Below are positions 5,169-25,711 of a DNA stretch of 47,323 nt, piece after piece; position 1 is the stretch's first letter, and each line of letters starts with the position of its first letter. The notes under the pieces are model-generated. The model saw only the letters and a program-made list of their open reading frames with translations, did no database searches and was not told the origin of the DNA. Source of the stretch: Elusimicrobiota bacterium (GTDB lineage: Bacteria; Elusimicrobiota; Elusimicrobia; Elusimicrobiales; UBA9959). The position numbers and the translations under genes were made by a program. The stretch is taken from the NCBI GenBank assembly GCA_016207645.1, contig JACQPH010000023.1, forward strand, positions 1 through 47,323, written 5' to 3'.

Positions 5169-5170
5169 GT

Positions 5171-6268: not shown

Positions 6269-6281
6269 ATAAGGACCCGCG

Positions 6282-6743: not shown

Positions 6744-6778
6744 TTTATCCTCCTGTGAATACTCCGCCGCTCTCCGCT

Positions 6779-7978
6779 CTACACCAGATGTCCCAGCTTC
6801 TCTTTTTTGGTCTTCATATAGCGGGCATTGTGCCTGTTCGGACCGATGATAAGCGGTACCCGCTCCTTTATCTCCAGGCTGTACCCCGCCAGCCCGGCCA
6901 GCTTGCGGGGATTATTGGTTATCAGCCGCAGGCGGCGCAGGCCGAGGTCGCAGAGTATCTGCGCCCCTATGCCGTAATCCCGCAGGTCGGCGGCGAAACC
7001 CAGCGCCTCGTTGGCCGTCACCGTGTCGTAGCCCTTGTCCTGCAGGCTGTAGGCCTTCACTTTATTGGCCAGCCCTATGCCGCGGCCCTCCTGGCGCATA
7101 TAGAGGATGACGCCCGAGCCCTCTTTGGCTATCAGGCGCATGGCCGCGCGCAGCTGGGGGCCGCAGTCGCAGCGGCGCGAGCCGAACACGTCCCCGGTCA
7201 GGCATTCCGAGTGCACGCGCACCAGGGCGGGGTCCCCGGCCTTTCCCAGCATAAGGGCCAGATGCTCCAGCCCGGTCAGCCTCTCCTTATATACGGTGAT
7301 ATCGAAAGTACCGAATTCGGTGGGGAGCGTCGAAGCGGCGGCCTTCTCGACCAGGCTCTCGTTGCGGCGGCGGTAGGCTATCAGGTCGGCTATGGTGCCC
7401 AGCTTCAGGGCGTGCCGGGCGGAGAAACGCGCCAGTTCGGGCAGGCGGGCCATGGTGCCGTCGGGGTTCATGATCTCGCAGATAACACCGGCCCCGCCGA
7501 GCCCCGCCAGCCTGAGGAGGTCCGTACAGGCCTCGGTATGGCCGGCGCGGGCCAGCACGCCGCCGGCGCGCGCTTTGAGAGGGAAAACATGGCCGGGGCG
7601 GGTAAGGTCCCCGGGAAGGGAGGCCGGGTCCGAAAGCACCTTGATGGTGCGGGCCCTGTCCGCCGCGGAAATACCCGTGGTGACGCCCTTGGAGGCGTCC
7701 ACGGAAATAAGCCAGTTGGTCTTGTAGGGGTCGCTGCTCTCCCTTTCCATCTGGAACAGGTGGAGAGCGCGGGCCCTTCCCTCTTCCAGCGGGGAGCAGA
7801 TAAGCCCGCGCCCGTACCTGGCCATGAAGTTTATCCTGGCGGGGGTGGCGAACTTCCCGGCCAGCACCAGGTCGCCCTCGTTCTCGCGGCCCTCGTCGTC
7901 CGTGATCACCACCATGCGGCCGAGCTTAATATCCTTAATTATCTCTTCTACCGGAGAGAACCTGATGTTTTTCTTCAT
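6779..7978 (-). CDS. ribBA: Bifunctional 3,4-dihydroxy-2-butanone 4-phosphate synthase/GTP cyclohydrolase II
   Basis: A 399-residue fusion feeding both precursors into riboflavin synthesis. The N-terminal RibB domain (about 1-200) has [15 protein letters not shown] and the [13 protein letters not shown] loop. The C-terminal RibA domain has the zinc site [20 protein letters not shown], the catalytic RQEGRGIGL, and [15 protein letters not shown]. Both halves look catalytically intact. It is the first gene of the operon. Its ATG directly follows an eight-T run of an intrinsic terminator, and the AGGG in the terminator's 3' arm, about 9 nt before the ATG, is the only plausible ribosome site. The FMN riboswitch therefore probably controls both termination and translation of this gene. 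Confidence 0.97.
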
Positions 7979-11599: not shown

Positions 11600-13219
11600 C
11601 TATCTTATCACGGCCACCGTGCCGTTATAGACCGTGCCTTCGGCCTCTATCTGGTAGATATACACCCCGCCGGGCACCGGCTGGCCGCCGGATTTGGCGT
11701 CCCAGATCAGGGAGTTCCCGACCGGGCCGGTCTTCATGGAACCCACCAGCGCGCCGCGCAGGTCGTAGATCCTGCCTTTCACGTTCCTGTCCTGCGGGTT
11801 GTCGAAAACAAAGACCATGGTATCATTTTTGTTGTCGCCGTTCGGCGTTATAAGGCGGTTGGTAAGGCCCGCTTTATCGGCGGAGAAACTGCCGCCCCGC
11901 TCGGTGGTGCGCAGCTGGTACCGGCCCAGCAGCCGGGTGTCGAGCGTGACGCTGTGCTCGGCCGCGTCGACGTCTCCGTACAGCTGCATCCAGCGCGCGC
12001 CGTTATGGAAATACACGCTCAGGGTCTTCTCGTCGATCACGGCCGAGGGGGTGATGGTCTCGCCCGACTTGGCGTAGTACAGCTTCAGCGCGCCGTTCCT
12101 GGAAAGCTTGAAGTCGGAGGCCGGTTCCAGACCGCCGCGGTAGGCCGAGAACTCCACGGATTTCACCACCCGGCCGGCCAGGTCCTCCGGGTGGGTGGAG
12201 ATCTCTATGCTGTAGGAATCCATGGGGTCCGCGGACGCCGAGAAAAAATCCCCGGTCCCGTCCTCCGGGATCTGCAGTATGCTCTTGTTGTCCGGGGCCA
12301 GAAAAAAAAGCCCGCCTCCCTCGCTCGCTCGCGCGTAGGACGGGATGGAGATCCCGGCCTCGTTTACGGCGCGCGCGTGGTAGTAGAAGGATTCGCCCTC
12401 TCCCAGGATGTCGGTCCAGGACAGCGTGCCCGAGGAAGTAGCGCCGAGGTACGCCCATTCCGCGTCGGCCGGGGCGGTGGCCCGGTAGACTTCGTACTTC
12501 TTTATCTCGTACGGATAGGACGGGCTGAAGCGGTCGCCGAAGGGGATGCGGCTCTGGTAGCCGGCGGGGGAGACCCAGGTCATGGTCACGGAATTCCCGG
12601 CGCGGGCGATCTGGAAATTCATCGGGGCCAGCGGGACCAGCGCGAAAGCGGCGGCCGGGTTGGAGAGTTCGGAACGCAGGCCGTGGCTGTTGATGGTCTC
12701 GAGGGAGAAATAATAGGTGCTGCCCGGATTGAAGCCCTCGATGATCCGGCTTTCCGCGGCGCCCGCCGCCAGCGGCGTCCAGGTCTGCGCGTAGGCGGCG
12801 GCGCTCTCGAATTCCTCGTCGGTGTCGATGAACCCCGAGTCGGTATAGCGCAGCGTATAGGTGTCGGCCGGTTCGGCCTGGCGGCTGATATCGGCGGAAG
12901 GGGCGGTCCAGGTCAGGCGTATCCCGGTGCTCGAGACCGTGACGGGCGTCAGGTCGTGGACGGAAGCCGGGAAAGGCCAGAAGGACAGCTTGCCGCTGCG
13001 GTGCGACCAGGTTCCCGCCTCCTGCGTCGAGACCGCGACCTCCTGGAGGCTGGCGTTCTGCTCGTAGTTGGGGGAAACCATGGAGGCGGAGCCGTAACCG
13101 TAGACCCCGTTCACGTCCAGGAAGCTGGCGGAGGCCATATGCGCGGCGTAAAGCCCGTCGGCGGCCCGACAGAGGGCCGCCAGGAAAAGGAAGGCGCGGG
13201 CAGCAGGTTTCACGGTCAC
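11600..13219 (-). CDS. Secreted fibronectin type III protein with gliding-motility-type C-terminal domain
   Basis: A 539-residue protein with a short hydrophobic N-terminus (ARAFLFLAALCRAADG) that should act as a signal peptide. Two fibronectin type III-like regions follow (about 65-185: TGIRLTWTAPSADI, TYTLRYTDSGF; about 190-305: SVTMTWVSPAGY, FYYHARAVNEAG). A beta-rich region follows, and the last ~85 residues resemble the gliding-motility-associated/type IX type B C-terminal domain (LITPNGDNKNDTMVFVF, GRIYDLRG, PVPGGVYIYQIE, ending GTVAVIR). In Bacteroidota such domains direct proteins through the type IX system. Here that role is inference. The start is GTG at 13219, exactly where a transcript from the TATAAT at 13226-13231 should begin, so the mRNA may be leaderless. 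An alternative GTG lies 6 nt downstream. The adhesin gene follows 23 bp later. Confidence 0.75.
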   Translation of the reverse strand: MTVKPAARAFLFLAALCRAADGLYAAHMASASFLDVNGVYGYGSASMVSPNYEQNASLQEVAVSTQEAGTWSHRSGKLSFWPFPASVHDLTPVTVSSTGIRLTWTAPSADISRQAEPADTYTLRYTDSGFIDTDEEFESAAAYAQTWTPLAAGAAESRIIEGFNPGSTYYFSLETINSHGLRSELSNPAAAFALVPLAPMNFQIARAGNSVTMTWVSPAGYQSRIPFGDRFSPSYPYEIKKYEVYRATAPADAEWAYLGATSSGTLSWTDILGEGESFYYHARAVNEAGISIPSYARASEGGGLFFLAPDNKSILQIPEDGTGDFFSASADPMDSYSIEISTHPEDLAGRVVKSVEFSAYRGGLEPASDFKLSRNGALKLYYAKSGETITPSAVIDEKTLSVYFHNGARWMQLYGDVDAAEHSVTLDTRLLGRYQLRTTERGGSFSADKAGLTNRLITPNGDNKNDTMVFVFDNPQDRNVKGRIYDLRGALVGSMKTGPVGNSLIWDAKSGGQPVPGGVYIYQIEAEGTVYNGTVAVIR

Positions 13220-13338: not shown

Positions 13339-13746
13339 ATGCCGGCAAACAAATCCGCCCTGTTCCTTCTTGCGGCCCTGGCGCTCTGCCCGGCGGCGGC
13401 TTTCTGCGCCGCGTCGGCGCTCGGGCAGTCCCTGGCGCTGAACAAGCTGGTCACTCCCAACGGGGACGCGAAGAACGACACCTTCATCTTCCGCTGCCAT
13501 AACCCGCGCGACTCGGACGTAGAGGGCAGGATCTACGACCTCCACGGCAGGGAAGTCGCGGTCATGCGCCTTAAGCAGCGCTCCAACGGGGTCGGCCCGT
13601 CCATCGCGGTGGATAACAATTCCGGCATCTACTATGACCTGGAATGGAACCCCAATTCGGGCGGGCATCACCCCGGCGGCTTATATATCTACCAGGTCCG
13701 GCTCGAATCGAAGGTCTTTAAGGGAACAATAGTAGTAATAAGGTAG
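13339..13746 (+). CDS. Small secreted protein consisting of a gliding-motility-type C-terminal domain
   Basis: Reading from ATG 13339 gives 135 residues: a clear signal peptide (MPANKSALFLLAALALCPAA, cleavage near FCAAS) followed almost at once by one domain. That domain parallels the end of the divergently encoded 539-residue protein: KLVTPNGDAKNDTFIF, GRIYDLHGREV, HPGGLYIYQVR and the terminal GTIVVIR. It therefore looks like a type B sorting-like domain without cargo. It might be a decoy, an anchor subunit or a stripped paralogue. An in-frame ATG at 13240 would add 33 residues with no signal-peptide logic, so I reject it. The PorV-like gene follows 47 bp downstream on the same strand. Role unknown. 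Confidence 0.7.
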   Translation: MPANKSALFLLAALALCPAAAFCAASALGQSLALNKLVTPNGDAKNDTFIFRCHNPRDSDVEGRIYDLHGREVAVMRLKQRSNGVGPSIAVDNNSGIYYDLEWNPNSGGHHPGGLYIYQVRLESKVFKGTIVVIR

Positions 13747-13793: not shown

Positions 13794-15794
13794 ATGAAGA
13801 TTCAAACGCAAAACAGGAGGAACACGGCGCTGTCGGCGCTGCTGTTCGCTTTTATCCTCTGCCCTCTACCCTCTACCCTCTCCCCCGCCTTTGCCGCCTT
13901 CGAGGACCTGGGTTTCGGCGCGAGGTCCCCCGGCATGGGCGACGCCGTCACCGGCGTGGCCGACGATATTTCCGCCCTCTATTACAACCCGGCGGGCCTT
14001 TCCAACCTGGAGCGCCCGAAGCTGATGGCCTCGCACTCCCTCTTTTATACCGGCCTGAGCGACGGTTCCAACCTGGGCCTCAGCGCCGTAGCGCTGGCCA
14101 TGCCCGTCACCGGCGGCCGCAACGGCACTCTCGGCGCCTCCTGGCAGCAGTTTTCGCTTTCAGGGGTCTACTACGAGCAGACCGGGCAGGTTTCCTGGGG
14201 CTACCGGTTCCCCAAGAACACCAAGTACGAGAAATTTTCGATAGGCGGCTCGCTCAAGTACCTTAACCACGGGTTCACCCGCCTGCCCGAGTCCTACAAC
14301 GCCGTGGAAGACGACCTGATGCAGCGGAACGCCACCGACCCGGTGCTCGCCGGGATAAATTCCAAGTCGGCCATAGACGCCGACGCGGGGCTGCTGTACC
14401 GGCTCACCCGCCGCTGGACCCTGGGCGCGGCCGTCCTGAACGCCATGCAGGCCGACGTGGCCTTCAGCGCTTCCGGCAAGGACAAGGTCCCCATGAAGAC
14501 CAGGATCGGCGCCTCCTACAAAAGCCTCTGGATGGTGCTCGCCGCCGACGCCAGGCTGCAGAAGGGACCCGACGGCAAACTGGACAAGCAGGTGGTCTTC
14601 GCGGCGGAGAAGGTCTTCCCGAGCCTGGACAGGGGCGACGTCGGCGTAAGGGCCTCGCTGGGCGCCGGCGACAGGGAATTCAAGCAGGCCACGCTGGGCC
14701 TTTCCTACAAGATACAGAAGATACAGTTCGACTACGGCTTTTCCCTGCCCATAGGTACGGTAAAGGAGACCGCCGGCAACCATAAGCTGGCGCTCACCTA
14801 CCACTTCGGCGCTCCCACGCAGACGGAACTGGCGGAGACCGAACTGCTCGACCAGTATAAGAAGCTGCGCGAGGCGCAGGATTACAAGAGTCCGCGCGAC
14901 ACCGCCAGTCTTAACGACCCGCGGCTCGCCGAGGTCAAGGAGCAGGTCGCCAAAGAGAACTATTACGCCGCCAACAAGCTGCTGCTGGAAAAGGCCAACG
15001 AGCTGCTGCCCGACTCCTCCGTGGTCAGCCTCACGCGCCGCCTCTCCACCGTGGCGGCCTTCTTCCCGTCGCTGGCGGTGGAGGACAGGAGGAAGCAGTA
15101 CTGGGAGGAGCTCCTCTCGGGCGGGGCCAGGAATTTCATAAACGGCAACGACCTGCGCGCGATGAAGCAGCTGGCCTACGCGCAGAGCCTCAACCAGCAG
15201 GACTCCGCCCTCTCCAATTTCCTGGACCGCGCGGCGGAACTGACGCGCGTGGCGGCGGACCGGGTCCCGGCCGATTTCAGCCGCGGCTGGGCCGAATACA
15301 AGATGACGGAATCCGACGATTTCTACGTCAAGAAGAAACACAACGAGGCCCTGCGCAAGCTGGAGGAGCTGCTGGAGCTCGAACCCGGCAACCTGATGGC
15401 CCTCAAGAAAAGCGGCTCCTGCAACTATATGCTCGGCAACTACGCGCGCGCCGGGCGTGACTGGGAACTGGCTTTCAAGCTGGAGCCCGATCCCCTGGAA
15501 AAGGCCAAGGTGGGCAAGATGGTGGACGAGGCCCGCGCCAAACTGGGCGGCAGGGAAGGGGCCTGGGAGCCCGGCTCGGTCCAGGGCCGCGGCCCCGTCG
15601 AGGAAGAGGCGCCCGTCTCCAAGGCCGCCGTCGACGCGAGAGAGATAGAAAAGCTCTACCAGGCCGGGGCCGACTCCTACGCCAAGGGGGAATACGGCAA
15701 AGCGGCCGACGCCTTCCGCAAGATCCTGACCAAGGACCCGCAGAACACCCAGGCCAAGAAGGCCCTGGAGCGCATAATCAGGCTCTCGCGCTGA
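13794..15794 (+). CDS. PorV/PorQ-like outer-membrane barrel with C-terminal TPR repeats
   Basis: A 666-residue protein with a signal peptide (ALLFAFILCPLPST, cleavage near AFAAFE). Residues about 35-340 match the PorV/PorQ (UPF0164) type of outer-membrane protein: GFGARSPGMGDAVTGVADD, SALYYNPAGLSNLERP, then alternating beta strands such as FSIGGSLKYLNHGF and KLALTYHFGAP. The C-terminal half is helical with TPR-like units (NEALRKLEELLELEPGNLMA, LYQAGADSYAKGEYGKAADA). In Bacteroidota PorV receives type IX cargo at the outer membrane. Two proteins with type-B-like C-terminal domains are encoded next door, which makes a similar role attractive but unproven. The histidine kinase gene begins 21 bp downstream. 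Confidence 0.8.
   Translation: MKIQTQNRRNTALSALLFAFILCPLPSTLSPAFAAFEDLGFGARSPGMGDAVTGVADDISALYYNPAGLSNLERPKLMASHSLFYTGLSDGSNLGLSAVALAMPVTGGRNGTLGASWQQFSLSGVYYEQTGQVSWGYRFPKNTKYEKFSIGGSLKYLNHGFTRLPESYNAVEDDLMQRNATDPVLAGINSKSAIDADAGLLYRLTRRWTLGAAVLNAMQADVAFSASGKDKVPMKTRIGASYKSLWMVLAADARLQKGPDGKLDKQVVFAAEKVFPSLDRGDVGVRASLGAGDREFKQATLGLSYKIQKIQFDYGFSLPIGTVKETAGNHKLALTYHFGAPTQTELAETELLDQYKKLREAQDYKSPRDTASLNDPRLAEVKEQVAKENYYAANKLLLEKANELLPDSSVVSLTRRLSTVAAFFPSLAVEDRRKQYWEELLSGGARNFINGNDLRAMKQLAYAQSLNQQDSALSNFLDRAAELTRVAADRVPADFSRGWAEYKMTESDDFYVKKKHNEALRKLEELLELEPGNLMALKKSGSCNYMLGNYARAGRDWELAFKLEPDPLEKAKVGKMVDEARAKLGGREGAWEPGSVQGRGPVEEEAPVSKAAVDAREIEKLYQAGADSYAKGEYGKAADAFRKILTKDPQNTQAKKALERIIRLSR
13855..13890 (+). 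repeat. CCCTCTACC simple repeat inside a signal-peptide coding region
   Basis: The run reads CCTCTGCCCTCTACCCTCTA and continues CCCTCTCCCCC: three tandem CCCTCTA-like units. It encodes the residues around CPLPSTLSP just before the predicted cleavage site, and matches the repeat in the adhesin signal peptide (11475-11508, minus strand). Confidence 0.7.
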
Positions 15795-15815: not shown

Positions 15816-17147
15816 ATGAGGCTTTTCCACAAGTTAAGCGCGGCGCTGATGGCCGCCGCACTGGCGGCGGCCCTGCTGCTTTCCGGCATCTTCTTCAGCT
15901 TCCAGAACCGCACCGTCCGGCAGGCGCAGGAGGCCCGCCTGCAGGCGCTCGAGCAGTCCGTACTGGCCATGCTCGGCGAGGCCGAGCTGGCCGGCGACCC
16001 CCTGATGGCCGTGGATTATCTGTCGGGGCTGTGCAGCTCCAGGGCTGAAATACGGTCCTGCCAGCTCGATATCGGCCGCGGCATGGTCCCCGTCAAGGTC
16101 CGTAAAGCCGGCTCATTCGCCAAGTCCGACCTCCAGCTGCCGAGAACCATGCGCGGCGGCAAATTCTCGGCGCGCATAAATTTCTCGACCGAAGTCCTCT
16201 CCCTGGAGCGGCGCGAGGCCCTGGCCGGCGTCTGGCACGACCTGGCGGCGGCTTTCCTGGCCTCCATGGCGGCGGCGGCCCTGCTCGGCCTGCTGCTGGC
16301 GCGCCGGCTTACCAGGCGGCTCCGCCGGCTGGCCGCCGAGGCGGCCGCGGTAGGAGAGGGCAGGTTCGGCGTAAAGACGGACGCCGGCGGCTCCGACGAG
16401 GTCGCGGAGCTGGCGGCCTCCTTCAACGCCATGTCCGACCGCCTCCTGGAGCTGGAGACGATGAAGAAGAATTTCACGGCGTCGGTGACCCACGAACTCC
16501 GCTCGCCGCTGGGCGTGATAGAGACCTACGCCGCCATGCTGCTGAAGGAGAAAGACGCCTTCAGGCCGGAGGACCGGGCGGTCTTCGCCAGGATAAAAGA
16601 GAACGCGGGCCGCCTGGCCAGCTTCGTAACGGCCATGCTGGACCTGGCCAGGATAGAGCGCGGCAGGATGGAGCTGCGCCCGGCGAGGGAGGACCCGCTG
16701 GCCCTGACCCGCGACGCCGCCGATTTCCTGCGCCCCAAGGCCGAAGAAAAACAGGTAGCTTTCCTGGTCGAAGCCGGGGGGAGCGCCGCAGCCCTGCTGG
16801 ACAGGGAGCTCCTCACCCACGCCCTCACCAACCTGGTCTCCAACGCCATTAAATTCACCCCGGCCGGCGGCAAAGTCACCGTCCGCGCCGCCGTCTCCGG
16901 CGGCAAATACCGCGCCGAAGTGGAGGACACCGGCCCCGGCCTGCAACCCGGCGAGCCGGAAAAACTCTTCTCTCCCTTCTCCCAGGGCTCGGCCGCCCCC
17001 GGCCACGGCGGCACCGGCCTCGGCCTGGCCCTCGCAAAATCCATAGCCGAGCTCCACAAAGGCTCCATAGGCTGCGCCGCGGCTCCCGGCGGCGGCGCCC
17101 TTTTCTGGCTGGAGCTCCCGGTCGCGCCGGAGGCAAAAGCGCAGTAG
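15816..17147 (+). CDS. Membrane sensor histidine kinase with HAMP domain
   Basis: A 443-residue class I histidine kinase. TM1 is at about residues 8-29, a ~105-residue extracytoplasmic sensor follows, and TM2 is at about 137-160. Next come HAMP (RRLTRRLRRLAAEAAAVGEG), HisKA with phospho-acceptor H226 (FTASVTHELRSPLG), and the ATPase domain with N box (LTNLVSNAIKFTPAGG), G1 (VEDTGPGL) and G2 (GGTGLGLALAKSIAELHKG). All catalytic elements are present. It lies 21 bp after the PorV-like gene with an AAGGAG site before its ATG, so the two are probably co-transcribed. No response regulator is adjacent on this strand. The nearest three are in the convergent operon at 20.7-22.1 kb, making cross-operon pairing likely. 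Confidence 0.93.
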   Translation: MRLFHKLSAALMAAALAAALLLSGIFFSFQNRTVRQAQEARLQALEQSVLAMLGEAELAGDPLMAVDYLSGLCSSRAEIRSCQLDIGRGMVPVKVRKAGSFAKSDLQLPRTMRGGKFSARINFSTEVLSLERREALAGVWHDLAAAFLASMAAAALLGLLLARRLTRRLRRLAAEAAAVGEGRFGVKTDAGGSDEVAELAASFNAMSDRLLELETMKKNFTASVTHELRSPLGVIETYAAMLLKEKDAFRPEDRAVFARIKENAGRLASFVTAMLDLARIERGRMELRPAREDPLALTRDAADFLRPKAEEKQVAFLVEAGGSAAALLDRELLTHALTNLVSNAIKFTPAGGKVTVRAAVSGGKYRAEVEDTGPGLQPGEPEKLFSPFSQGSAAPGHGGTGLGLALAKSIAELHKGSIGCAAAPGGGALFWLELPVAPEAKAQ

Positions 17148-17256: not shown

Positions 17257-18699
17257 ATGAAACCGATCTCACGCCTTCTCGCCGGTTCGATAGTCTGCTT
17301 CGCCCTTTGCGCCGGCGCTCAGGAGACCCCCGTGGCCTCGCCCAGCGCGCAGGCCGCCGAGCTTTCCGCCCGCATGCAGGAGGACGTCTCCCGCCTGCTC
17401 GAGCAGCTGGTCGGCCGCGGCCGCGCCCGCTCCTTCGTCTCCGTAGAGGGGGAAATAGTGCTCAAAAGCAAGAGCGAATCCGGCGCCCCGGCCGAGGACA
17501 CCCTCACCCTCCCCGGCTACGCCTCCGTCAACATCCTCGAGAAGACCGGGCAGTACCTCAAGCAGCAGCGCGAGGAGAGCCAGCGCACCAGCGAATTCCG
17601 CGTAAAGAAACTCTCGGTCTCCCTGGTCTTCGACCGGAGCGTCCCCGAAGCCCGGGTCAACGCCATAAAGCTGATGATCTCCGCCGTGCTGCGCCTCAAC
17701 GAAGCCCGCGGCGACAGCATAATCTCCGAAAGGTCCGAAATGCTCCCCTGGTGGAAGAGCGCCCTGGAAGCCCCGGAAATACGCCCCGTGCTCATCGCCT
17801 CCGCCTTCGGCGCCCTGGCCCTGGCCGTACTCCTGGTCTTCGGCTACATACTCGCCTCGCGGCTGCTCAGCGGGTTCGTGGATTACGCCCGCATCAACGC
17901 CCCCGCCGGCGCCACCGTGACCGCGACGGGGGGAGGAGCGGGCGGCCCCGGCGCCCCCGGCGAAGGCGAAACCGACGAATTCGGCGAAGTGATAGACGTG
18001 GAAGCCCGCGCCGCCGCGGGCGGGGCCATGCTCACCGCCGGTTCGGCCTTCGAATTCCTGGAGAAGATCCCGCCCTCCGAAGCCGCCGACCTCCTCTCCG
18101 ACCTGCCGGACGAGGACGCGGCCATTATAATCGCCAACCTCGCCGACCGCAAGGCGCACATCTCGTCCAAAATACTGCTCGCTCTGGCTCCCGCCAAGAA
18201 ACAGGCCGTCTCCGCCCGGCTGCTGGGGCTCAAGCAGGCCGAACCGGAAAAGGTCTACGAGATAGAGAACGACCTCCGCCTGAAGCTGGAAAAAAGCCTC
18301 AAGGGAGCGGAAAAACTCGGCCGCCTCCTCTCGCTGGTGAACGAAGCCGAGCGCACCGAGATAATGGACAACCTCTCCCGCACCGACCCCAAGGGCTCCG
18401 AGGAACTGCGCCGCAAGATGGTCACTTTCGACGACATCTGCCGCCTGGACGAAAAGAACCTCCGCCCGCTGGTAGTGTCGATGCCCTACGCCGACTGGGC
18501 CACCGCCCTGGCCGCCGCCGGCGAGACCGCCGTAGGCAACGTGACCCGCCTGCTGCCCGAGGACATACGCATCATCATGAAGGACATGATGCTCAGCCGT
18601 CCGGAAGAGGAGAAGGTGATGGTGGCGAGGGCGAAAATAATCTCGGCCGCGGTCGAGCTCAACGCCAAGGGCAGGATAGCCCTGAAGGAGAACGTGTGA
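17257..18699 (+). CDS. FliF-FliG-like fusion: inner-membrane protein with flagellar rotor domains
   Basis: A 480-residue protein. Residues 1-21 are a signal peptide or TM1. About 85-165 resembles the last periplasmic part of FliF (VKKLSVSLVFDRSVPEARVN, then AVLRLNEARGDSIIS, compare FliF RLSVAVxVD and FDxARGD). TM2 is 177-199, followed by a Gly/Ala-rich linker. About 264-348 resembles the FliG middle domain (FLEKIPPSEAADLLSDLPDE, EKVYEIENDLRLKLEKSL), and 350-475 resembles the FliG C domain (LLSLVNEAERTEIMDNLSRT, MVTFDDICRLDEKNLRPL). FliF is normally ~550 residues with three ring-building motifs. Here most of it and FliG-N are missing. Torque-helix charges are only partly kept (R431, D443, R448; M444 where many FliGs have Asp). 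It is translationally coupled to the next gene, and motAB lies 6 kb away. The family match is my own alignment by eye. Function as a motor part is inference. Confidence 0.75.
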   Translation: MKPISRLLAGSIVCFALCAGAQETPVASPSAQAAELSARMQEDVSRLLEQLVGRGRARSFVSVEGEIVLKSKSESGAPAEDTLTLPGYASVNILEKTGQYLKQQREESQRTSEFRVKKLSVSLVFDRSVPEARVNAIKLMISAVLRLNEARGDSIISERSEMLPWWKSALEAPEIRPVLIASAFGALALAVLLVFGYILASRLLSGFVDYARINAPAGATVTATGGGAGGPGAPGEGETDEFGEVIDVEARAAAGGAMLTAGSAFEFLEKIPPSEAADLLSDLPDEDAAIIIANLADRKAHISSKILLALAPAKKQAVSARLLGLKQAEPEKVYEIENDLRLKLEKSLKGAEKLGRLLSLVNEAERTEIMDNLSRTDPKGSEELRRKMVTFDDICRLDEKNLRPLVVSMPYADWATALAAAGETAVGNVTRLLPEDIRIIMKDMMLSRPEEEKVMVARAKIISAAVELNAKGRIALKENV

Positions 18700-20669
18700 G
18701 CCCGCCTTCCGACGCTTTCAATTCCGAACTGGACTACCTCTGGCGCGCCGTGGGCGAAGCGCAGGACGCCTCCGCCCGCTCGGAGGCCGAGCGTGCGGAA
18801 GCCAGGAAAGGCCTGCTGGACACCGCCGGGAAGGCGCGGCGCCTGGAAAGCCGGCTCGCCGAAAGCCTGGAGCGGGAGCGCGGTCTTAAAGCCGAAACGG
18901 AAAGCCTCAGGGCCTCGATAAGCAGGGACGCCGGAACGCTGGCCCTGGCCGCGCGCCAGGCCCGCGAAGCCGCCGAAGCCAGGGCGGGCCTGCTGAAAAA
19001 AGAGAACGAAGCCGCCCTGGCCGGCGTCGAACTGGCCGCCCTGCGGGCCGAGGCCGGCAGCCTCAGGGAAGCTCTGGCTGCCCGCGACGCCGCCATAGAA
19101 GCCTTCAAAGAAAGGATCGCCGGCCTGCTGTCCCTGCCGGAACTCGCCCGGGCCCTGAAGGAGGACTCGGCGCTCTCCGGAAAACAGGCCTCCGCTTACG
19201 AGGAACTTCTCGAACGCGCCGAGAAAGGCAAGCGCGCCGCGGAAACGGCAGCGGCGGACCTGGCGGCCGCGGCGGAGCGCGAAAATTCCTTCAAGACCTC
19301 TCTGGCCGCGTCCGAAACCGAACTCTCCGCCCTGCGCTCCGAGCTCGGCGGCAAACGGCGGGAACTGGCCGCGCTGGAGACGGCGCTGGCCGGGGCGGCC
19401 TCGAAAGAGAATATTTCCGCCGGCGAGAGAGCCTCGCTGCAGGGCCGCGCCGCCGCCCTCGGCGCCGCCCTCTCGGAGAAGGAAACGGCCCTTAGAACCG
19501 CTCTCTCCGACTGCGCGGCCCTGCGCGCCGAGCTGGACGCTTCCAGGTTCGAGGCAGAAAAACTCCGCCAGGCGGCCGACGGGCACGCCCTGCAGGCGCA
19601 GGAACAGCGCTCCAATTTCAGCGGGGCCGTGGCCCAGGTTTTCGAGCTGCAGAAGCGCGCCGCCGCCCTGAAGAGCGCCCTGGGCCAGGCCCAGGAACAG
19701 AACGCCGCCCTCGCCGCGGAACTTAAAGGGCGCGGGGCGGATATAGAGACCGTCAACGGCCTGCTGCGCGACGCCAAGAACGGCCTGGCCCTGGAGAAGG
19801 AGACCGGCAGGCGCGCCGGCCTCAGGATTAAGTCCCTGGAAGGCGAGATAGAGAACCTTAAGGCGAAGATAACGACTGCCGCCGATCACGCGGCCCGGTT
19901 GCTGAGGGCCGTGGAGGAGCGCGACCTGCAGATCGGCAAGCTCAGGACCGATCTCAAGAAGGTCGAAGACCTCGAGATAGAGAACGAGGACCTGCGCCGG
20001 AAGAACATCAGGTTCACCGGCTTCCTGAAAAGGGAACAGACGGATTTCAACTCGCGGATGATAACGGCGCTGGACAGGACGGCCAAGGACCTGAAGACCT
20101 TCAACCTGCGCATCCCCGCCGCCGAGCGCAAAAGCCTGGAGCCGGCCATGAAGAACCTGCTGGCCTCGGTCAACCTGCTGAGGGGCTGGCAGGAATACCT
20201 GGACCCGGAAACCCCCGAACTGCGGGATACGGAGCTGGCCGGCTTCGTATCCGGCGAGGTGGCGAAATGGGAAAGAGCGTTCAGGCAGCGCAAGCTCTCC
20301 GTCACGGCCGCCGTGCTCAACCCGCGCCTGCGCGCGCCGCTGGCGCACGAGAGCATGAAGATACTTTTCCACCAGCTCATCAAGAACGCCTACGAGCGCC
20401 TGCAGCAGGGTGGCAGCCTGCGCGTCACGCTGAAGGGCTCGGAGGACGGGCGGCACGCCTCGCTGCGGTTCGAGGACAGCGGCCCCGGCTTCTCCCAGGA
20501 AGCGCTTTCGAAGCTTTTCGCCCCTTTCAACACCACCGAGAAGGGGAAAGCCGGCATAGGGCTGGCCGTGGCGCGCCGCATAGCCGAAAAGCACGGCGGG
20601 ACCCTGGAGGTCTCGAACAAGAAAGAGCGCGGCGCCGTGGTGGAAGTCCTGCTCCCGCTGGGGGGTTAA
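18696..20669 (+). CDS. Coiled-coil protein with C-terminal GHKL (histidine kinase-type) ATPase domain
   Basis: The start is GTG at 18696, overlapping the preceding stop as GTGA, with AGGAG 4 nt upstream, so translation is coupled to the FliF-FliG-like gene. The 657-residue product has no signal peptide. About residues 10-440 are almost pure heptad-rich coiled coil (Ala/Glu/Arg/Leu). A short helical region follows, then a GHKL ATPase domain: N box HQLIKNAYERLQQGG, G1 EDSGPGFS, G2 KAGIGLAVARRIAEKHGG. No histidine is found where an H-box should lie; that helix reads DFNSRMITALDRTAKDL. It may therefore be a kinase-like ATPase without autophosphorylation, a phosphatase, or a structural switch. Its coupling suggests a direct partner of the FliG-like protein. 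Confidence 0.82.
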   Translation: MSPPSDAFNSELDYLWRAVGEAQDASARSEAERAEARKGLLDTAGKARRLESRLAESLERERGLKAETESLRASISRDAGTLALAARQAREAAEARAGLLKKENEAALAGVELAALRAEAGSLREALAARDAAIEAFKERIAGLLSLPELARALKEDSALSGKQASAYEELLERAEKGKRAAETAAADLAAAAERENSFKTSLAASETELSALRSELGGKRRELAALETALAGAASKENISAGERASLQGRAAALGAALSEKETALRTALSDCAALRAELDASRFEAEKLRQAADGHALQAQEQRSNFSGAVAQVFELQKRAAALKSALGQAQEQNAALAAELKGRGADIETVNGLLRDAKNGLALEKETGRRAGLRIKSLEGEIENLKAKITTAADHAARLLRAVEERDLQIGKLRTDLKKVEDLEIENEDLRRKNIRFTGFLKREQTDFNSRMITALDRTAKDLKTFNLRIPAAERKSLEPAMKNLLASVNLLRGWQEYLDPETPELRDTELAGFVSGEVAKWERAFRQRKLSVTAAVLNPRLRAPLAHESMKILFHQLIKNAYERLQQGGSLRVTLKGSEDGRHASLRFEDSGPGFSQEALSKLFAPFNTTEKGKAGIGLAVARRIAEKHGGTLEVSNKKERGAVVEVLLPLGG

Positions 20670-20701
20670 GGGGAGCAGTTACGCTTAATCCTTGATACTA
20701 C

Positions 20702-21379
20702 CTACAACTTAAACAGGTAGCCGAGGCCGAACACGGTCCTGATCTTCGCGCCGAAGGGCCCGAGGCGGGAGCGCAGCGCCTCTATGCGCTTGTCTACGGC
20801 CCTGGGCCCGGCCTCGAGGCCCTGCCGCCAGACCTGCTCGAGCAGCACGGTGCGGGAAACCACCCTGCCCTGGTTCCTGAGGAAATAAAGCAGCAGGTCG
20901 AACTCCAGCGCCGTAAGCCTTATACGTTTCCCTCCGACCGAAACGGTCCTGGCCTCGGGTGAGATCCGGAGCGGGCCAAAAGCGTACTCCGCCGGCTTTT
21001 CGGAGGCGGCCGCGCCCGGGCCGGCCCTCGCCAGCAGGTTCAGCAGCCTGGCGCGGAAAAGGCGCGGCTCCGGCGGGAAGGTAAAATACTCGTCGGCGCC
21101 GTTCTCCAGGGAGAGCGCCGCCGCCGCCGGTGAATAAGGGCCGGAGCCGGTCAGGACCAGCAGCAGCCGCGAAGTCCTTTTATCCCCGCGCAGGACGGAA
21201 ACCAGGTCCCTCCCGCTCATATCGGGCAGGGAGGAGTCGATCACGGCCAGGCCGCGCGGCCGGGCTTTCAGGAAAGCCGCGGCGGAAGGGTGGAATTTGA
21301 GGCGGAAGCCTTCCAGGGCCGTCTTTAGAAAAGCCAGCGCCGCGGGGCTGGAGGTTACGCAGGAAGCGGCGGGTTTCAT
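20702..21379 (-). CDS. OmpR-type response regulator with degenerate receiver
   Basis: 225 residues. The N-terminal receiver-like domain (about 1-118) keeps the phospho-acceptor position D48 (AVIDSSLPDMSG). It lacks the acidic Mg-binding pair (CVTSS instead of xxDDx) and the conserved Lys-Pro (YFTFPPEP). The C-terminal winged helix (about 128-225) is a good OmpR-type DNA-binding domain: TALEFDLLLYFLRNQGRVVS, DKRIEALRSRLG, IRTVFGLGYLF. It is the last gene of the motA-motB-HK-RR-RR-RR operon, its ATG overlapping the previous stop by 4 nt (ATGA). A pseudo-receiver suggests phosphorylation-independent action or control by protein contact. It may regulate the neighbouring surface or motor genes, but no operator could be identified. 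Confidence 0.9.
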   Translation of the reverse strand: MKPAASCVTSSPAALAFLKTALEGFRLKFHPSAAAFLKARPRGLAVIDSSLPDMSGRDLVSVLRGDKRTSRLLLVLTGSGPYSPAAAALSLENGADEYFTFPPEPRLFRARLLNLLARAGPGAAASEKPAEYAFGPLRISPEARTVSVGGKRIRLTALEFDLLLYFLRNQGRVVSRTVLLEQVWRQGLEAGPRAVDKRIEALRSRLGPFGAKIRTVFGLGYLFKL

Positions 21380-21759
21380 CGGGGTGCGGGGAAAACGGCC
21401 GCCTTTATGCGGGCCTGCAGCTCGTCGGGATCGAAAGGCTTTATCACGTAGCCGGCGGCGCCCAGCTTCAGGCCTTCGGTCACCATGTCCAGCTCGGAGC
21501 GCACGGTAAAGAAGATTATCGGGGTGCGGGAGAGCGCCGGGATCGCGCGGATGCGGCGCGCGGCCTCGAAGCCGCTGATATCGGGGAGCCCCACGTCGAG
21601 CAGTATCATGGCGGGTTCGTTCTTTTCCGCCAGCTCCACGCCCTTCAGGGCCAGGGGGGCCGTGAGCACCGCGCAGCCGGCCCCGGCCGCTATGCGGGCG
21701 GCTATGGCCAGGTAATCCGGTTCGTCGTCGACTATAAGTATTTTGGGGCGGGCTGTCAT
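21376..21759 (-). CDS. Single-domain response regulator (CheY-like)
   Basis: 127 residues, only a receiver domain. All catalytic residues are present: D11-D12 (LIVDDEP), phospho-acceptor D55 (ILLDVGLPDISG), the Thr in FFTVRS and the Lys of YVIKPFDPDEL. There is no output domain, so it probably signals by protein contact, like CheY, or serves as a phosphorelay intermediate. Its start overlaps the stop of the upstream receiver gene by 4 nt and its stop overlaps the start of the next by 4 nt, so all three regulators are translationally coupled. A CheY-like protein beside a FliG-like protein and MotAB invites the idea of motor switching, although no CheA, CheW or FliM is encoded in the window. 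Confidence 0.92.
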   Translation of the reverse strand: MTARPKILIVDDEPDYLAIAARIAAGAGCAVLTAPLALKGVELAEKNEPAMILLDVGLPDISGFEAARRIRAIPALSRTPIIFFTVRSELDMVTEGLKLGAAGYVIKPFDPDELQARIKAAVFPAPR

Positions 21760-22133
21760 GGCTTCTTCGGGACCAGGGATTCCACTTTTTTCTGCAGGTA
21801 GGAAAGCTCCACCGTCTTGCTCATGAACTCGCGGCAGTTGGCTTCCTGCCTGAAGAGCTCGCTCATGTGCTTGTCGAAAAAAGTGCCGGTGATGACCAGC
21901 ACCGGGATATTGCGCGTATCGTCGTCCGTCTGCAGGTTGCGCAGCACCTCGATGCCGCCGATATCCGGCATCATCACGTCGAGCAGGATTATCCGCGGTT
22001 TGACGGCCCGGGCTTTCAGCAGGCCTTCGCGGCCGTTCTCGGCGATCTCGACGGTGAAGCCGAGGTCGGTGAAATAGTCGGAGACCATGGTGCGGAACTC
22101 CACGTTATCGTCGATTATCAGGATCAGGTTCAT
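21756..22133 (-). CDS. Single-domain response regulator (CheY-like)
   Basis: A receiver-only protein of 125 residues. I chose the ATG at 22133 (MNLILIIDDN) because GGAG lies 6 nt upstream. An ATG at 22145 would add four residues but has only a weak site. The acidic pair is in IIDDN, and the phospho-acceptor is D52 in ILLDVMMPDIGG. Switch Thr (VITGTF) and Lys (FMSKTV) are present, although the usual Pro after the Lys is Thr. It follows the histidine kinase gene by a few bases and overlaps the next receiver by 4 nt, so it is probably a direct target of that kinase. Confidence 0.9.
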   Translation of the reverse strand: MNLILIIDDNVEFRTMVSDYFTDLGFTVEIAENGREGLLKARAVKPRIILLDVMMPDIGGIEVLRNLQTDDDTRNIPVLVITGTFFDKHMSELFRQEANCREFMSKTVELSYLQKKVESLVPKKP

Positions 22134-22148
22134 TTCAGGCTCCATGCT

Positions 22149-24284
22149 CTATTTCGGGGGCGCGGGGGGAGGGGGCGGCGCGGCCGGCGCGGCGGCCGCC
22201 ATGGACCTGGAGACCGTGAAGATGAACTTGCTCCCCTTGCCCACCTCCGACTCCACCCAGATATCGCCCTTGTGCAGCTCTATCGTCATCTTGCACATCG
22301 CCAGCCCCAGGCCGAAGCCCATGCTCTTGTGCTCTTCCATCTGGGAATACTTCTCGAAGATCTCCTTGCGCTTGTTCTCCGGTATGCCCGGGCCGGTGTC
22401 CTCGACCGCGAAGAAGACCTTATCCCCGTCCTCCCAGGTCGAGAGGGTAATACTGCCGCCGCCCGGGGTGAACTTGAGAGAGTTGCCCATCAGGTTGGTG
22501 ATGACGCGTTCCAGCAGGCCCGGGTCGGCGGTGAACGTTATCGGCGCGGGAGGCAGCACGACCGAGAGCTTTATATTCTTGGGACCGGCCACGGGCTCGT
22601 GGTTCTCGCGCACGCGGGTCACTATGGCCCCGGCGTCGACCTGGTCCAGCGAGAGCGTCATGTTGCCGCGCTCGAGCTTGGTGGTGTTCAGGATGTCGTC
22701 TATCATGCCGCGCAGGCGGCGCGACGAGTAAAGCATGCTGGTCAGGTACTTGTCCGTGGAGGGGGAGGACGGGATCTTCTTCATCAGCAGCTCGGTGTAG
22801 CCCTGCAGCGTGGAAAGCGGCGCGCGCATGTCGTGAGTGATCATGTGGAAGAAGTCTTCCTTGGCCTTCTCTATCTCCTTCTCGCCGGTGATATCGCGGA
22901 TTATGAGGACCCGGCCGGGACGCTTCAGCGTGGCCAGCAGGAACTGGTTGGAAATGATGCGGAAGCTCTTCAGCACGGTGGAGGTCTCGGTCTCCACCGG
23001 CGCGTCCAGCTCGATGCGCAGGTACTTCTCCTTCAGCGCCATCATGTCGGTCAGCCCCTTGTAGAAAGCCTCGTTCTTGACCGAGCGCGGCACCGAAACC
23101 TCGGGGGAGATCTTCGGGATGCCCAGCAGCTTGAGGGCCGTATTGTTGGAATAGATGAGCGAACCGCGGTCGTCGACCAGGATGACGCCGTCGGAGATGG
23201 TGTCGATGAGCGCCTGGGCCTTGCCCTTCTCCTCCACTATCTGGTTCAGCTGGAAGGCGCGGTAGGCCTGCAGCTCCAGCATCAGGCGGTTCAGGATGCC
23301 GCCGAGCACCCTGACCTCCGGCCAGCCCGCCTGCGGGATGACGTGGTCCAGGTGCTGGGTGCGCAGGAAGCCCTTTACCCCGTTGACCATGTTGTTGATG
23401 GGGACGATGATGCGGTTGGAGATCAGGAAGACCACCACCATGGTTATGCCGAAAATTGCCGCCGCCAGGAGGGAGAAGACCAGGATGGACTTGCGCTGCT
23501 TGCCGTACAGCTCGTCCTCCGACTGGACCGAGACCGCCGCCCAGTCCAGCTTGTCGATGGCCGCATAGGCGCCGGAATACTCCGCCCCGGAGAATTTGAA
23601 TTTGGCCAGCGTGCCCGTCCGGCCGCCGGTCTTGAAGGCCTTCCTCATCGCCTCCGGCTTATACTCCAGGCCCTTCATGTCCTGGCAGGGCAGCGGACGG
23701 CCCTCCCCGTCGGAAACGAAGACGCGGCCGCTGCGCCCGGCCTTCTGCGAATTTATCTTGCCCAGCAGCTTGTCCATCGCGAAATGGAAGAGCACTACGC
23801 GCCCGTCCACCAGCGGGTAGGCGAGCGGGAAAAATGCCTGGCCCTTGACGCAGAGCACGGGGCCGGGGGTAACTATGCCGGACTCGTGCGCCTGGCTCGA
23901 GACCGCGGTGGCGTAGGAAGCCAGGGAGCTCTTCTCCCTGACCTTGTCGCTCTGGATGAAGAACACTTCCTTCCCTTCGCGGGAAAGAAGGCTGAGCGAC
24001 ATGATGTCCGAATTTATGCGCGCGGCCTGCTGTATGACCTTGGCCTCGTCCAGCTTTTTAGCCTGGAGGGGGTTCTCTATCTCGTACAGGAAAGCCAGGC
24101 TGCGGTTGGTGGTCAGGAACCACTCGTCCACGTTCACCGCGGAAAGGCCGGAGAGGCCCTTGTGCAGTTCGTAGTAGCTGGCCACGGAAGAGTTGTACTG
24201 GTAGATGTTCCAGCCCACGGAAAGCAGCAGCGGGAGCACCGCTATGCCCAGCAGGATCAGGAGGAACCGTGTAGTCAGCTTCAT
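22149..24284 (-). CDS. Sensor histidine kinase: Cache-like sensor, HAMP, PAS, HisKA, ATPase
   Basis: 711 residues. TM1 is at about 5-27, and a ~240-residue extracytoplasmic region of Cache type (VDEWFLTTNRSLAFLYE, GRSGRVFVSDGEGRPL) is followed by TM2 at about 268-290. Then come a HAMP-like linker (SNRIIVPINNMVNGV), PAS at about 360-475 (LIDTISDGVILVDDRGSLIY), HisKA with the H in FHMITHDMRAPLS, and the ATPase domain (NLMGNSLKFTPGGG, VEDTGPGIPEN, GFGLGLAMCKMTIELHKG). It ends in an unusual Ala/Pro-rich tail (PAAPPPPPAPPK). It lies between motB and two CheY-like receivers in one operon, so it is the likely input for them. The extracellular sensor suggests response to a small ligand. Confidence 0.93.
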   Translation of the reverse strand: MKLTTRFLLILLGIAVLPLLLSVGWNIYQYNSSVASYYELHKGLSGLSAVNVDEWFLTTNRSLAFLYEIENPLQAKKLDEAKVIQQAARINSDIMSLSLLSREGKEVFFIQSDKVREKSSLASYATAVSSQAHESGIVTPGPVLCVKGQAFFPLAYPLVDGRVVLFHFAMDKLLGKINSQKAGRSGRVFVSDGEGRPLPCQDMKGLEYKPEAMRKAFKTGGRTGTLAKFKFSGAEYSGAYAAIDKLDWAAVSVQSEDELYGKQRKSILVFSLLAAAIFGITMVVVFLISNRIIVPINNMVNGVKGFLRTQHLDHVIPQAGWPEVRVLGGILNRLMLELQAYRAFQLNQIVEEKGKAQALIDTISDGVILVDDRGSLIYSNNTALKLLGIPKISPEVSVPRSVKNEAFYKGLTDMMALKEKYLRIELDAPVETETSTVLKSFRIISNQFLLATLKRPGRVLIIRDITGEKEIEKAKEDFFHMITHDMRAPLSTLQGYTELLMKKIPSSPSTDKYLTSMLYSSRRLRGMIDDILNTTKLERGNMTLSLDQVDAGAIVTRVRENHEPVAGPKNIKLSVVLPPAPITFTADPGLLERVITNLMGNSLKFTPGGGSITLSTWEDGDKVFFAVEDTGPGIPENKRKEIFEKYSQMEEHKSMGFGLGLAMCKMTIELHKGDIWVESEVGKGSKFIFTVSRSMAAAAPAAPPPPPAPPK

Positions 24285-24301
24285 GGCGGATCGGTCAGCG
24301 C

Positions 24302-24928
24302 TTAAATTTCATGCCGGATAATGTTTATCTCTATGCGCCTGTTCCCGGAGCGGCCTTCGGGGTTGTCGTTGGACCTTACGGGCTTGAATTCCCCGTACCC
24401 CACCGCGGAAAGTTTCTCCGGGGCCACGCCTTCCTTTATGAAGAACTGCAGCACCGAGAAAGCCCTGGCCGAGGAAAGTTCCCAGTTGGACCTGAAACGG
24501 AGGGTGCGCCCCAGCGGCCGGTTATCCGTGTGGCCCTCTATCTGGATCGGGTTGGGCAGGTCCTTGAACACGGCGGTCAGGCGGTGCAGGTGGGGGAAAG
24601 AGGAGGGCTTCAGCACGTCGCTGCCGGGCTCGAAAAGGATGGGGTCGGAGAAGTTGATGCTGATCTTGTTGGCCGAGATCTCGACCTGGGCTATCTGCTG
24701 GATGCCGTTCTTCGAAAAAAGGGTGCTCACTATGGTCGTGTCCCTGCCGAAGGTCTCCTCGATGGCTTTCTGGCTGAACTGCGTGTCTATCTTCTTGGAG
24801 CTGTAGAAAGCGAACAGGATCATGAAGAAGATCATCAGGTAGCTCATCATGTCGCCGTAGGTGATGGCCCACAGCGCGCCGCGGTTGAGCTCGTTCTCCA
24901 GTTCGTCCTCGCGTTCATAGTAGCGCAT
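24302..24928 (-). CDS. motB: MotB-type stator protein (OmpA-like peptidoglycan-binding domain)
   Basis: 208 residues. There is one N-terminal transmembrane helix with the MotB signature WAITYGDMMSYLMIFFMILF. D26 matches the proton- or sodium-binding aspartate. A short linker precedes an OmpA-like peptidoglycan-binding domain (IEGHTDNRPLG, ELSSARAFSVLQFF, LSAVGYGEFKPV, NRRIEI). In the family MotB anchors the MotA ring to the cell wall and conducts ions. It lies 3 bp after motA. The protein is shorter than E. coli MotB (308) but near the size of many minimal MotB proteins. With no flagellar genes nearby, it could power the FliG-like fusion protein encoded at 17.3 kb or act elsewhere. Confidence 0.93.
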   Translation of the reverse strand: MRYYEREDELENELNRGALWAITYGDMMSYLMIFFMILFAFYSSKKIDTQFSQKAIEETFGRDTTIVSTLFSKNGIQQIAQVEISANKISINFSDPILFEPGSDVLKPSSFPHLHRLTAVFKDLPNPIQIEGHTDNRPLGRTLRFRSNWELSSARAFSVLQFFIKEGVAPEKLSAVGYGEFKPVRSNDNPEGRSGNRRIEINIIRHEI

Positions 24929-24931
24929 AGT

Positions 24932-25711
24932 TCAGGGTTTGCCGGCGACGCCGTGCCTGACGCCCTCCATCGCCTGGTAGCCGCGCAGGTGCATCTCTAT
25001 CAGGTGGGGGGTCTTGCCGGACATGATGTCCAGCACGCCCTCGAGGATGAGCTGGAGCACCAGGGTCTCCTCCATGGCCCGCAGGCGGATCTTGTTGGCC
25101 ACCGGCACGCAGAACATGTTGGAGAAGCCGATCCCGAACAGGGCGGAGGTGATGGCCACGGCCATCGAGCGGCCTATCGCGGCGGGGTCCGAGATATTGC
25201 TCAGCGTCTGGATGATGCCGAACAGCGTGCCGATCAGGCCGAACATAGGGGACAGCACGCCCATGGTGCGGTACAGATTGGAATCCTCGCTCACATCGAG
25301 GCGGCGCAGGCGGATCTCCTCCTCGAGGATGCCCCGCGTCTCGCGCGACTCGGCGCTCACCATGGCCACGCTGACCGCCCGCTTCAGGAACCCGCCGGCG
25401 AAAGCCGGGTCGGTGTTCGTCAGCGCCATGATGCCGCCCTGCTTCTGAGCGGTCTCGGCCATGCCCACCAGCGTGCGGACCGTAACGTCCATGGGGGGGG
25501 CCTTAGGCGCGTAGAAAATATCCAGGAGCGCCTTTAAGCCGGCCAGGAAGCGCTTGTAGGAGGTATTGATGATGGTGGAAGCCAGCGTGCCGCCCAGCAC
25601 GATCACGATGCCGTGCGTGTTCAGGATATTGCCGGCGACACCCGAGGAAAAGGCGCCCCAGACCATAATGGCCGCGCCGGCCACGAAACCGATTATCGTC
25701 ATTAAGTCCAT
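24932..25711 (-). CDS. motA: MotA-type stator protein (proton channel)
   Basis: 259 residues with four predicted membrane helices: two near the N-terminus (IIGFVAGAAIMVWGAFSS, GIVIVLGGTLASTIIN) and two after a ~110-residue cytoplasmic loop (YRTMGVLSPMFGLIGTLFGI, IGRSMAVAITSALFGIGFSN). MSPMFGLIGT-type and PVANKI sequences carry the conserved channel prolines. The cytoplasmic loop is highly charged (ESRETRGILEEEIRLRR), the part that in flagellar MotA pushes on FliG. MotA over ExbB or TolQ is favoured by length, the large loop and the MotB partner. It is first in a six-gene operon (motA-motB-HK-RR-RR-RR). A G8 run on the plus strand (25493-25500) inside the gene encodes two prolines. Confidence 0.93.
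   Translation of the reverse strand: MDLMTIIGFVAGAAIMVWGAFSSGVAGNILNTHGIVIVLGGTLASTIINTSYKRFLAGLKALLDIFYAPKAPPMDVTVRTLVGMAETAQKQGGIMALTNTDPAFAGGFLKRAVSVAMVSAESRETRGILEEEIRLRRLDVSEDSNLYRTMGVLSPMFGLIGTLFGIIQTLSNISDPAAIGRSMAVAITSALFGIGFSNMFCVPVANKIRLRAMEETLVLQLILEGVLDIMSGKTPHLIEMHLRGYQAMEGVRHGVAGKP

Follow-up and report, generated by a model that had tools for sequence, protein, structure and literature searches.

The fusion protein and its gene block

The window analysed here, a stretch of 47,323 nucleotides, is one entire contig (JACQPH010000023.1) of an Elusimicrobiota genome (GCA_016207645.1; 2.80 Mb, 167 contigs, 81% complete). On its plus strand lies a gene for a 480-residue protein that joins parts of FliF and FliG in a single chain, and a preliminary description, made from the sequence alone, had proposed that this gene and its neighbours form a rotor-stator machine without a flagellum. 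The protein is laid out as follows.

17257..18699, plus strand: FliF(RBM3)-TM-FliG(MC) fusion (TM, transmembrane; MC, middle and C-terminal domains), 480 amino acids, proposed rotor subunit; basis: Pfam, predicted fold, orthologues and the ratio of non-synonymous to synonymous substitution rates (dN/dS)
17320..17745, plus strand: RBM3-like S-ring domain, residues 22-163, alpha-beta-beta-alpha-beta, with a low-confidence collar insertion at residues 74-110
17782..17898, plus strand: long helix with a single membrane segment, residues 176-214
18043..18297, plus strand: FliG middle domain, residues 263-347; Pfam FliG_M 4.1e-5 (residues 289-347) and fold
18370..18684, plus strand: FliG C-terminal (torque) domain, residues 372-476

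Pfam searches and the predicted fold agree with the architecture already read from the letters, in which a signal peptide, a FliF-like periplasmic part, here assigned the RBM3 (S-ring) fold, one membrane helix and the FliG middle and C-terminal domains follow one another in one chain. The FliG_C domain was recovered by profile search, and the profile and fold matches to FliG and FliF, the searches that the preliminary description had itself proposed, were significant; against the full-length FliG equivalog TIGR00207 the fusion scored 53.6 bits, under the cut-off of 226.7. Pfam gave no FliG_N match in the fusion, as anticipated. Besides the signal peptide the chain has one membrane helix only, and hence no TM1, and it is without the N-terminal YscJ_FliF ring domains (RBM1-2). 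The earlier statement that the FliF ring motifs had been lost needs correcting, since RBM3 is retained. The EHPQ motif of FliG, through which FliM is bound, is altered in the subtype to which the window belongs (S). An identity as MgtE_N was rejected, as that match scored lower and covered only 38 residues, and the fold match favours FliG.

Fold prediction supports the FliG part in a second subtype (T) too. The RBM3 domain of subtype T rests on a Pfam YscJ_FliF_C match (7.2e-6), predicted secondary structure and one FliF model found with Foldseek (4.5e-5); VIA-align of the T-subtype model listed rows for FliG and the tetratricopeptide repeats (TPRs) and none for RBM3.

Full-length orthologues of the window fusion were found in 33 of the 59 genomes of its family, its own included, with one further copy split across two contigs. 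They are 45-87% identical and lie within the same gene block, which rules out a lone odd gene or a fusion made by assembly. Compared with the nearest orthologue (G110, same genus, 87% identity), dN/dS was 0.02 for MotB, 0.03 each for the fusion, MotA and the PorV-like protein, and 0.04 for the Cache kinase, with higher values for one receiver (0.11) and the coiled-coil ATPase (0.15). The fusion pairs tested from subtypes A and M had ratios of 0.08 and 0.31, respectively. All of these values are rough, as dS exceeded 1 in most pairs. Judged by these ratios, the fusion, MotA and MotB genes are under purifying selection.

The gene block around the fusion contains the following features.

8223..11576, minus strand: secreted repeat protein of 1117 amino acids, end of the conserved block
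11600..13219, minus strand: fibronectin-III (FN3) protein with a C-terminal CHU_C type IX sorting domain (CHU_C 2.1e-7, over cut-off)
13339..13746 (alternative start 13240), plus strand: small secreted protein with a CHU_C type IX sorting domain (3.8e-6, over cut-off)
13794..15794, plus strand: PorV/PorQ-like outer-membrane barrel with TPR (PorV_fam 6.4e-15, 55.5 bits, below the cut-off of 90)
15816..17147, plus strand: HAMP histidine kinase, directly upstream of the fusion, conserved
18696..20669, plus strand: coiled coil with HATPase_c and no HisKA match; its first 4 bases are shared with the end of the fusion gene
20702..21379, minus strand: degenerate receiver with a Trans_reg_C DNA-binding domain (Pfam)
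21376..21759, minus strand: single-domain receiver, CheY-like (Pfam)
21756..22145, minus strand: single-domain receiver, CheY-like (Pfam)
22149..24284, minus strand: dCache-PAS histidine kinase
24302..24928, minus strand: MotB with the conserved aspartate (E. coli D32) and an OmpA peptidoglycan-binding domain
24932..25711, minus strand: MotA of the flagellar (MotA/PomA) type (profile, tree)

Domain searches agree with the proposed operon of MotA, MotB, a Cache-PAS kinase and three receivers, which runs convergent to the fusion and coiled-coil ATPase genes. The conservation of the block was followed by tblastn of the window proteins against 21 S-subtype loci (the window and one from each of 20 other genomes). 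All 21 have both the fusion and the coiled-coil HATPase gene. Among loci of sufficient length, all 20 have the Cache kinase and receivers, 19 of 20 have MotA and MotB, and all 18 have the PorV-like, CHU_C, FN3-CHU_C and repeat proteins, so that the block proves to be conserved across related genomes and to reach further than the six genes first noted. Next to the block, also on the minus strand, is an operon for riboflavin synthesis (4563-7978).

Spread through the phylum and the search for flagellar genes

We surveyed 294 Elusimicrobiota genomes, 189 of them rated good, for FliG_C and FlhA. FliG_C was present in 120 of the 294 and in 93 of the 189 good ones, and 118 of the 120 were without FlhA. 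FlhA was not found in the genome of the window and was present in only three of the 294 genomes (G032, G215 and G246), of which G032 and G215 are among the FliG_C-bearing ones. In a set of 17 genomes searched for FliM/FliN (FliMN_C) and for the FliF N-terminal domain (YscJ_FliF, PF01514), neither was found in the window's genome and exactly the same three matched both. No flagellar gene set was thus found with FlhA, FliMN_C and YscJ_FliF as queries (flgB-K, fliE and fliC were not individually searched), and the claim that the genes come without a flagellum stands on these three absences, which rule out an ordinary flagellar base. Flagellar genes have been reported absent from Elusimicrobia (accessible part of PMC7031533). 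The FlhA-bearing contigs (G032 contig 2, G215 contig 78, G246 contig 208) run contrary to that printed statement, and a binning error is possible; G215 holds a 320-codon FliG frame as well as a T-subtype fusion.

What had been described as one minimal system turned out to be a family of several subtypes, with three paralogous fusion genes in the window's own genome, each with a MotA-like gene within 10 kb. Of 12 genomes examined closely, 11 carry two to five FliG_C copies each. A tree of the FliG part, which gives subtype groups and no deep branching order among them, placed 33 sequences in S (the window type), 13 in M, 4 in A, 2 in B, 3 in C, 2 in D and 84 in T, with 6 singletons, and separated all of these from the flagellar FliG of E. 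coli and G032. Nearly all T-subtype proteins have C-terminal TPRs, as judged by length and shown by Pfam in one (L133). Outside the fusions, the locus L074 (7336-8376; G037 contig 15) encodes a soluble 346-residue protein of FliG middle and C-terminal domains and TPRs, with no FliF part and no membrane helix, between ParA- and ParB-type genes.

In the 12 genomes, 30 of 39 MotA-like genes (open frames of at least 240 codons) lie within 10 kb of a FliG_C gene, where 1.07 would be expected under even placement; leaving out one of them that groups with ExbB/TolQ (G110:C29) gives a stricter figure of 30 of 38. The comparison value for ExbB/TolQ-like genes is 1 of 20, and one of the 30 MotA/FliG_C pairs is the flagellar pair of G032. 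Of 135 unique loci, one of them flagellar, the 87 with at least 6 kb on either side entered a flank census; as gene calling was imperfect in starts and strands (the window was corrected by hand), its counts are lower bounds, of at least 58 loci with MotA, 60 with MotB, 67 with a PorV-like gene and 64 with a protein of at least 1,000 residues.

A scan of genome contigs beyond the phylum, made with peptide patterns of the T subtype alone, kept 78 loci, all with titles naming Elusimicrobia, Elusimicrobiota, Elusimicrobiales, Elusimicrobium or Endomicrobia, or simply 'bacterium'. Two families consisting mostly of genomes of 1-2 Mb, f2 and f15, hold respectively one (G134) and none of the 120 FliG_C genomes, a scarcity that may mark loss in host-associated lineages.

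MotAB stators and linked surface proteins

The window MotA matched PomA with 1.7e-47, below the equivalog cut-off of that model. In a tree of the window MotA and up to six MotA per subtype, rooted with ExbB as the sole outside group, MotA of the fusion loci clusters with flagellar MotA and apart from ExbB/TolQ-like proteins of the same phylum; the branch leading to all MotA is 2.2 long and its node has a support of 0.50. Every rotor subtype with sampled MotA forms its own MotA clade. The aspartate of MotB corresponding to E. coli D32 is kept in 18 of 18 S-subtype and 34 of 35 T-subtype sequences, and the MotA prolines P173 and P222 in 18 of 18 of subtype S.

The torque contacts are less uniform. 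In E. coli, MotA R90 contacts FliG D288-D289 and MotA E98 contacts FliG R281 (accessible part of PMC12505986). At the FliG R281 position, 32 of 33 S sequences have D, 78 of 84 T sequences have G and all 13 M sequences have K or R. The D288 position holds an acidic residue (D or E) in 32 of 33 S sequences, E in all 84 of T and Q in all 13 of M. On the stator side, all 18 S-subtype MotA sequences have Q or H in place of R90, whereas K or R stands there in every sequence of T (31), M (7) and A (3) and in none of the three of C; E98 persists in 17 of the 31 T sequences and in none of the 18 of S. These alignments indicate that the ion path is kept and that the rotor-stator contact differs, most of all in the subtype of the window, which is our main caution. 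That both sides of the contact have changed in subtype S fits either a re-coded contact or a changed role.

Two loci carry double-MotB operons (L112 6727-7407 and L136 11541-12284). The ion-binding aspartate is missing from 2 of 4 subtype-B and 3 of 8 singleton MotB copies, which suggests unequal MotB pairs.

Newly recognised here are genes in these loci for PorV/PorQ-like proteins and for proteins with type IX sorting domains. PorV_fam scored over its cut-off in one M locus (3.7e-46) and one T locus (3.3e-32). Outside subtype S we scanned ten large neighbours (L133, L097, L099, L117, L120, L116, L070, L069, L106 and L136), and seven of them (L097, L117, L120, L116, L106, L136 and L069) had a C-terminal type IX match (FlgD_ig, Por_Secre_tail or related), some below cut-off and those of L106 and L069 weak (0.0003 and 0.002). 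The large neighbours in L133 and L099, both partial, gave no such match, and that in L070 is an AcrB transporter, so that a protein of at least 1,000 residues is not always a surface protein. A 2633-residue piece from L097 contains 18 bacterial Ig-like and 6 invasin repeats.

FlgD_ig matches were also counted across 10 genomes. Of 140 matches, 18 have a FliG_C gene within 10 kb, against 3.97 expected, and a match is that close to 15 of 40 FliG_C genes. Eight of the ten FlgD_ig frames with at least 5,000 codons are equally near to a FliG_C gene, the longest of the eight having 17,343 codons. P-values for these counts come out too small, since related genomes enter them as independent. Three FlgD_ig open frames have 14,000-17,600 codons (G037:C6:90218, G110:C35:268943 and G028:C11:39408), two of them within 10 kb of a fusion gene. 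Thr, Ser, Ala and Gly abound in slices taken from three giant FlgD_ig frames.

Proposed mechanism, rival explanations and known systems

What the analysis shows for these loci is domain content, predicted fold, linkage, conservation, selection and the lack of export and switch genes. We think it fairly probable that the fusion forms a rotor resembling the S-ring, that MotAB turns this rotor, and that it is coupled to PorV-like proteins and to surface proteins with sorting domains, the output being surface motility or the movement of adhesins. The locus would then be one subtype of an ion-driven rotor-stator motor, built of flagellar motor parts without a flagellum and widespread in Elusimicrobiota. 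Its periplasmic RBM3 domains would assemble a ring resembling the FliF S-ring, the single membrane helix would span the inner membrane, and the cytoplasmic FliG middle and C-terminal domains would serve as the track. MotA-MotB, anchored to peptidoglycan, would admit ions via the MotB aspartate and push on FliG_C, and the motion of the ring would be transmitted across the periplasm to the PorV/PorQ-like TPR outer-membrane protein and the type IX-sorted surface proteins. The cargo would be the giant adhesin-like proteins in other subtypes and the FN3/CHU_C proteins in subtype S, and the output gliding or adhesin movement; control would lie with both kinases, together with the receivers and the coiled-coil HATPase. 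The preliminary description had named gliding or surface-protein movement as possible uses, and the PorV/PorQ-like and sorting-domain genes in the loci, some of them giant, speak for this part; ring assembly, torque and its transfer, rotation, periplasmic coupling, motility as output and regulation are all steps that we infer.

We are nearly evenly divided, leaning slightly towards doubt, over a broader proposal, in which Elusimicrobiota possess parallel non-flagellar rotary motors, each with a natural RBM3-FliG fusion ring, its own MotAB, a PorV-like coupling and its own type-IX-sorted protein, including giants of ~7,000-17,000 codons. The flagellar rotor would then have a second use in biology, with several copies in one cell, each serving its own cargo, and with a re-coded stator-rotor contact under two-component control in subtype S.

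Several observations weigh against a surface motor of this kind. Isolates of the phylum have been reported as non-motile (accessible part of PMC11257099). The model of the window fusion has moderate confidence (mean pLDDT, the predicted local distance difference test, 70; pTM, the predicted template modelling score, 0.33), and the M-subtype fusion pair has the raised dN/dS of 0.31. No MotA-like gene lies within 10 kb of 13 of 43 FliG_C genes in the 12 genomes and no FlgD_ig match within that distance of 25 of 40 in the 10 genomes, and none of four loci of subtypes C and D with full flanks has a PorV-like gene. One S-subtype locus (L087, position 3585, in G212) is without motAB, the rest of the block being present. 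Subtype S is changed on both contact sides (FliG R281 to D, MotA R90 to Q or H), and in subtype T FliG R281 has become G in 78 of 84. To these must be added SprA-like matches in at least 134 genomes without FliG_C.

These last matches also bear on another explanation, that the rotor-stator unit energises the export or anchoring of type IX cargo and moves neither cells nor adhesins. Partial SprA-like matches (TIGR04189), all below cut-off, occur in 254 of the 294 genomes, among them a SprA/Sov-like protein of 1781 residues in the window's own genome (G000:C74:20867-21355; L222 4356-9701; E 5e-24), on which Pfam SprA found no match. A secretion role would draw on these, on the PorV-like and sorting-domain genes within the loci, and on the failure to find GldL or GldM in any of 30 genomes, in searches that had no positive control. 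Yet the FliG_C-less genomes with a SprA-like match imply that such a translocon does not need the motor, and the multiple paralogous motors per genome look cargo-specific, not general. We consider this explanation unlikely, if the strongest of the rivals.

Less likely again is that subtype S has been turned into a surface or load sensor, in which MotAB and the FliG ring no longer produce useful torque and instead signal contact to the kinases, the receivers and the HATPase. The conserved block with two sensor kinases, three receivers and a coiled-coil HATPase would suit this role, as would the altered torque contacts on the MotA and FliG sides and the retention of the regulators in L087, where motAB is gone. 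However, the MotB aspartate and the MotA prolines, invariant in 18 of 18 S-subtype sequences, and the dN/dS of 0.02-0.03 for MotA and MotB point to a working ion motor, and the changes on both sides are also compatible with a re-coded contact. That the genes are leftovers of a lost flagellum, kept by chance or decaying, appears very improbable: flagellar export genes in three of the 294 genomes mean that flagella may once have been commoner, but purifying selection, distinct paralogues each with its own gene partners, orthologues of 45-87% identity in the same block and the lack of FlhA, FliM/FliN and the FliF N-terminal domain in the window's genome all argue otherwise. An ordinary flagellum encoded in the missing 19% of this 81% complete genome can be practically dismissed, as five same-block relatives estimated at 91-100% completeness (G110, G263, G212, G045 and G114) also have no FlhA, FliM/FliN or FliF N-terminal domain, and the fusion has neither FliG_N nor an intact EHPQ motif.

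If the proposed surface motor is borne out, a flagellar rotor exists apart from any flagellum, in a phylum said to lack flagellar machinery, and motility is predicted in lineages believed to be non-motile. It would offer a natural reduced rotor, of one ring domain, one helix and FliG, for studying MotAB torque without export gate, FliM or FliN. It would also bear on the nature of the flagellar motor before the flagellum or in addition to it, and would connect work on type IX surface proteins with that on MotAB motors.

In a 2025 phylogeny of MotAB, the clade that contains MotAB and PomAB is called 'flagellar ion transporters', and no word starting with Elusimicrobi occurs in the main text (accessible part of PMC12505986). 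Among the matches listed in the open-licence literature, a search with preprints and subscription journals outside it, no title or beginning of an abstract dealt with FliG or a FliF-FliG fusion in Elusimicrobiota.

In Bacteroidota gliding, the comparison to which SprB-type adhesins belong, the GldLM motor works with type IX secretion (accessible part of PMC9389320). Both there and here an ion-driven inner-membrane motor, predicted from the genes in our case, is linked to PorV-like proteins and giant sorting-domain surface proteins. The difference lies in the motor, which here would be MotAB with a FliF-FliG rotor, the 30 genomes having given no GldL or GldM match in the uncontrolled searches described above. 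AglRQS-Glt of Myxococcus, in which a MotAB-like stator drives gliding without a flagellum, shares such a stator with the Elusimicrobiota loci; we know of no FliG- or FliF-type rotor in it. AglRS has been placed with generic, not flagellar, transporters (accessible part of PMC12505986).

FliF-FliG fusions have been engineered in Vibrio and Salmonella (accessible part of PMC11481574), the Salmonella one also appearing in PMC9389320. These likewise carry FliF and FliG on one chain, but they are laboratory-made and sit in flagellated hosts, whereas the Elusimicrobiota fusion is natural, shortened and found without flagella. With the flagellar MS-ring, C-ring and MotAB the system has in common the RBM3/S-ring fold, a membrane helix followed by the FliG middle and C-terminal domains, and MotA and MotB of flagellar type. 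It departs from the flagellar rotor in having one chain in place of two, no RBM1-2, TM1 or FliG_N, a genome without FliM, FliN and FlhA, and other gene partners. To our knowledge, no described system uses a FliF-FliG rotor without a flagellum.

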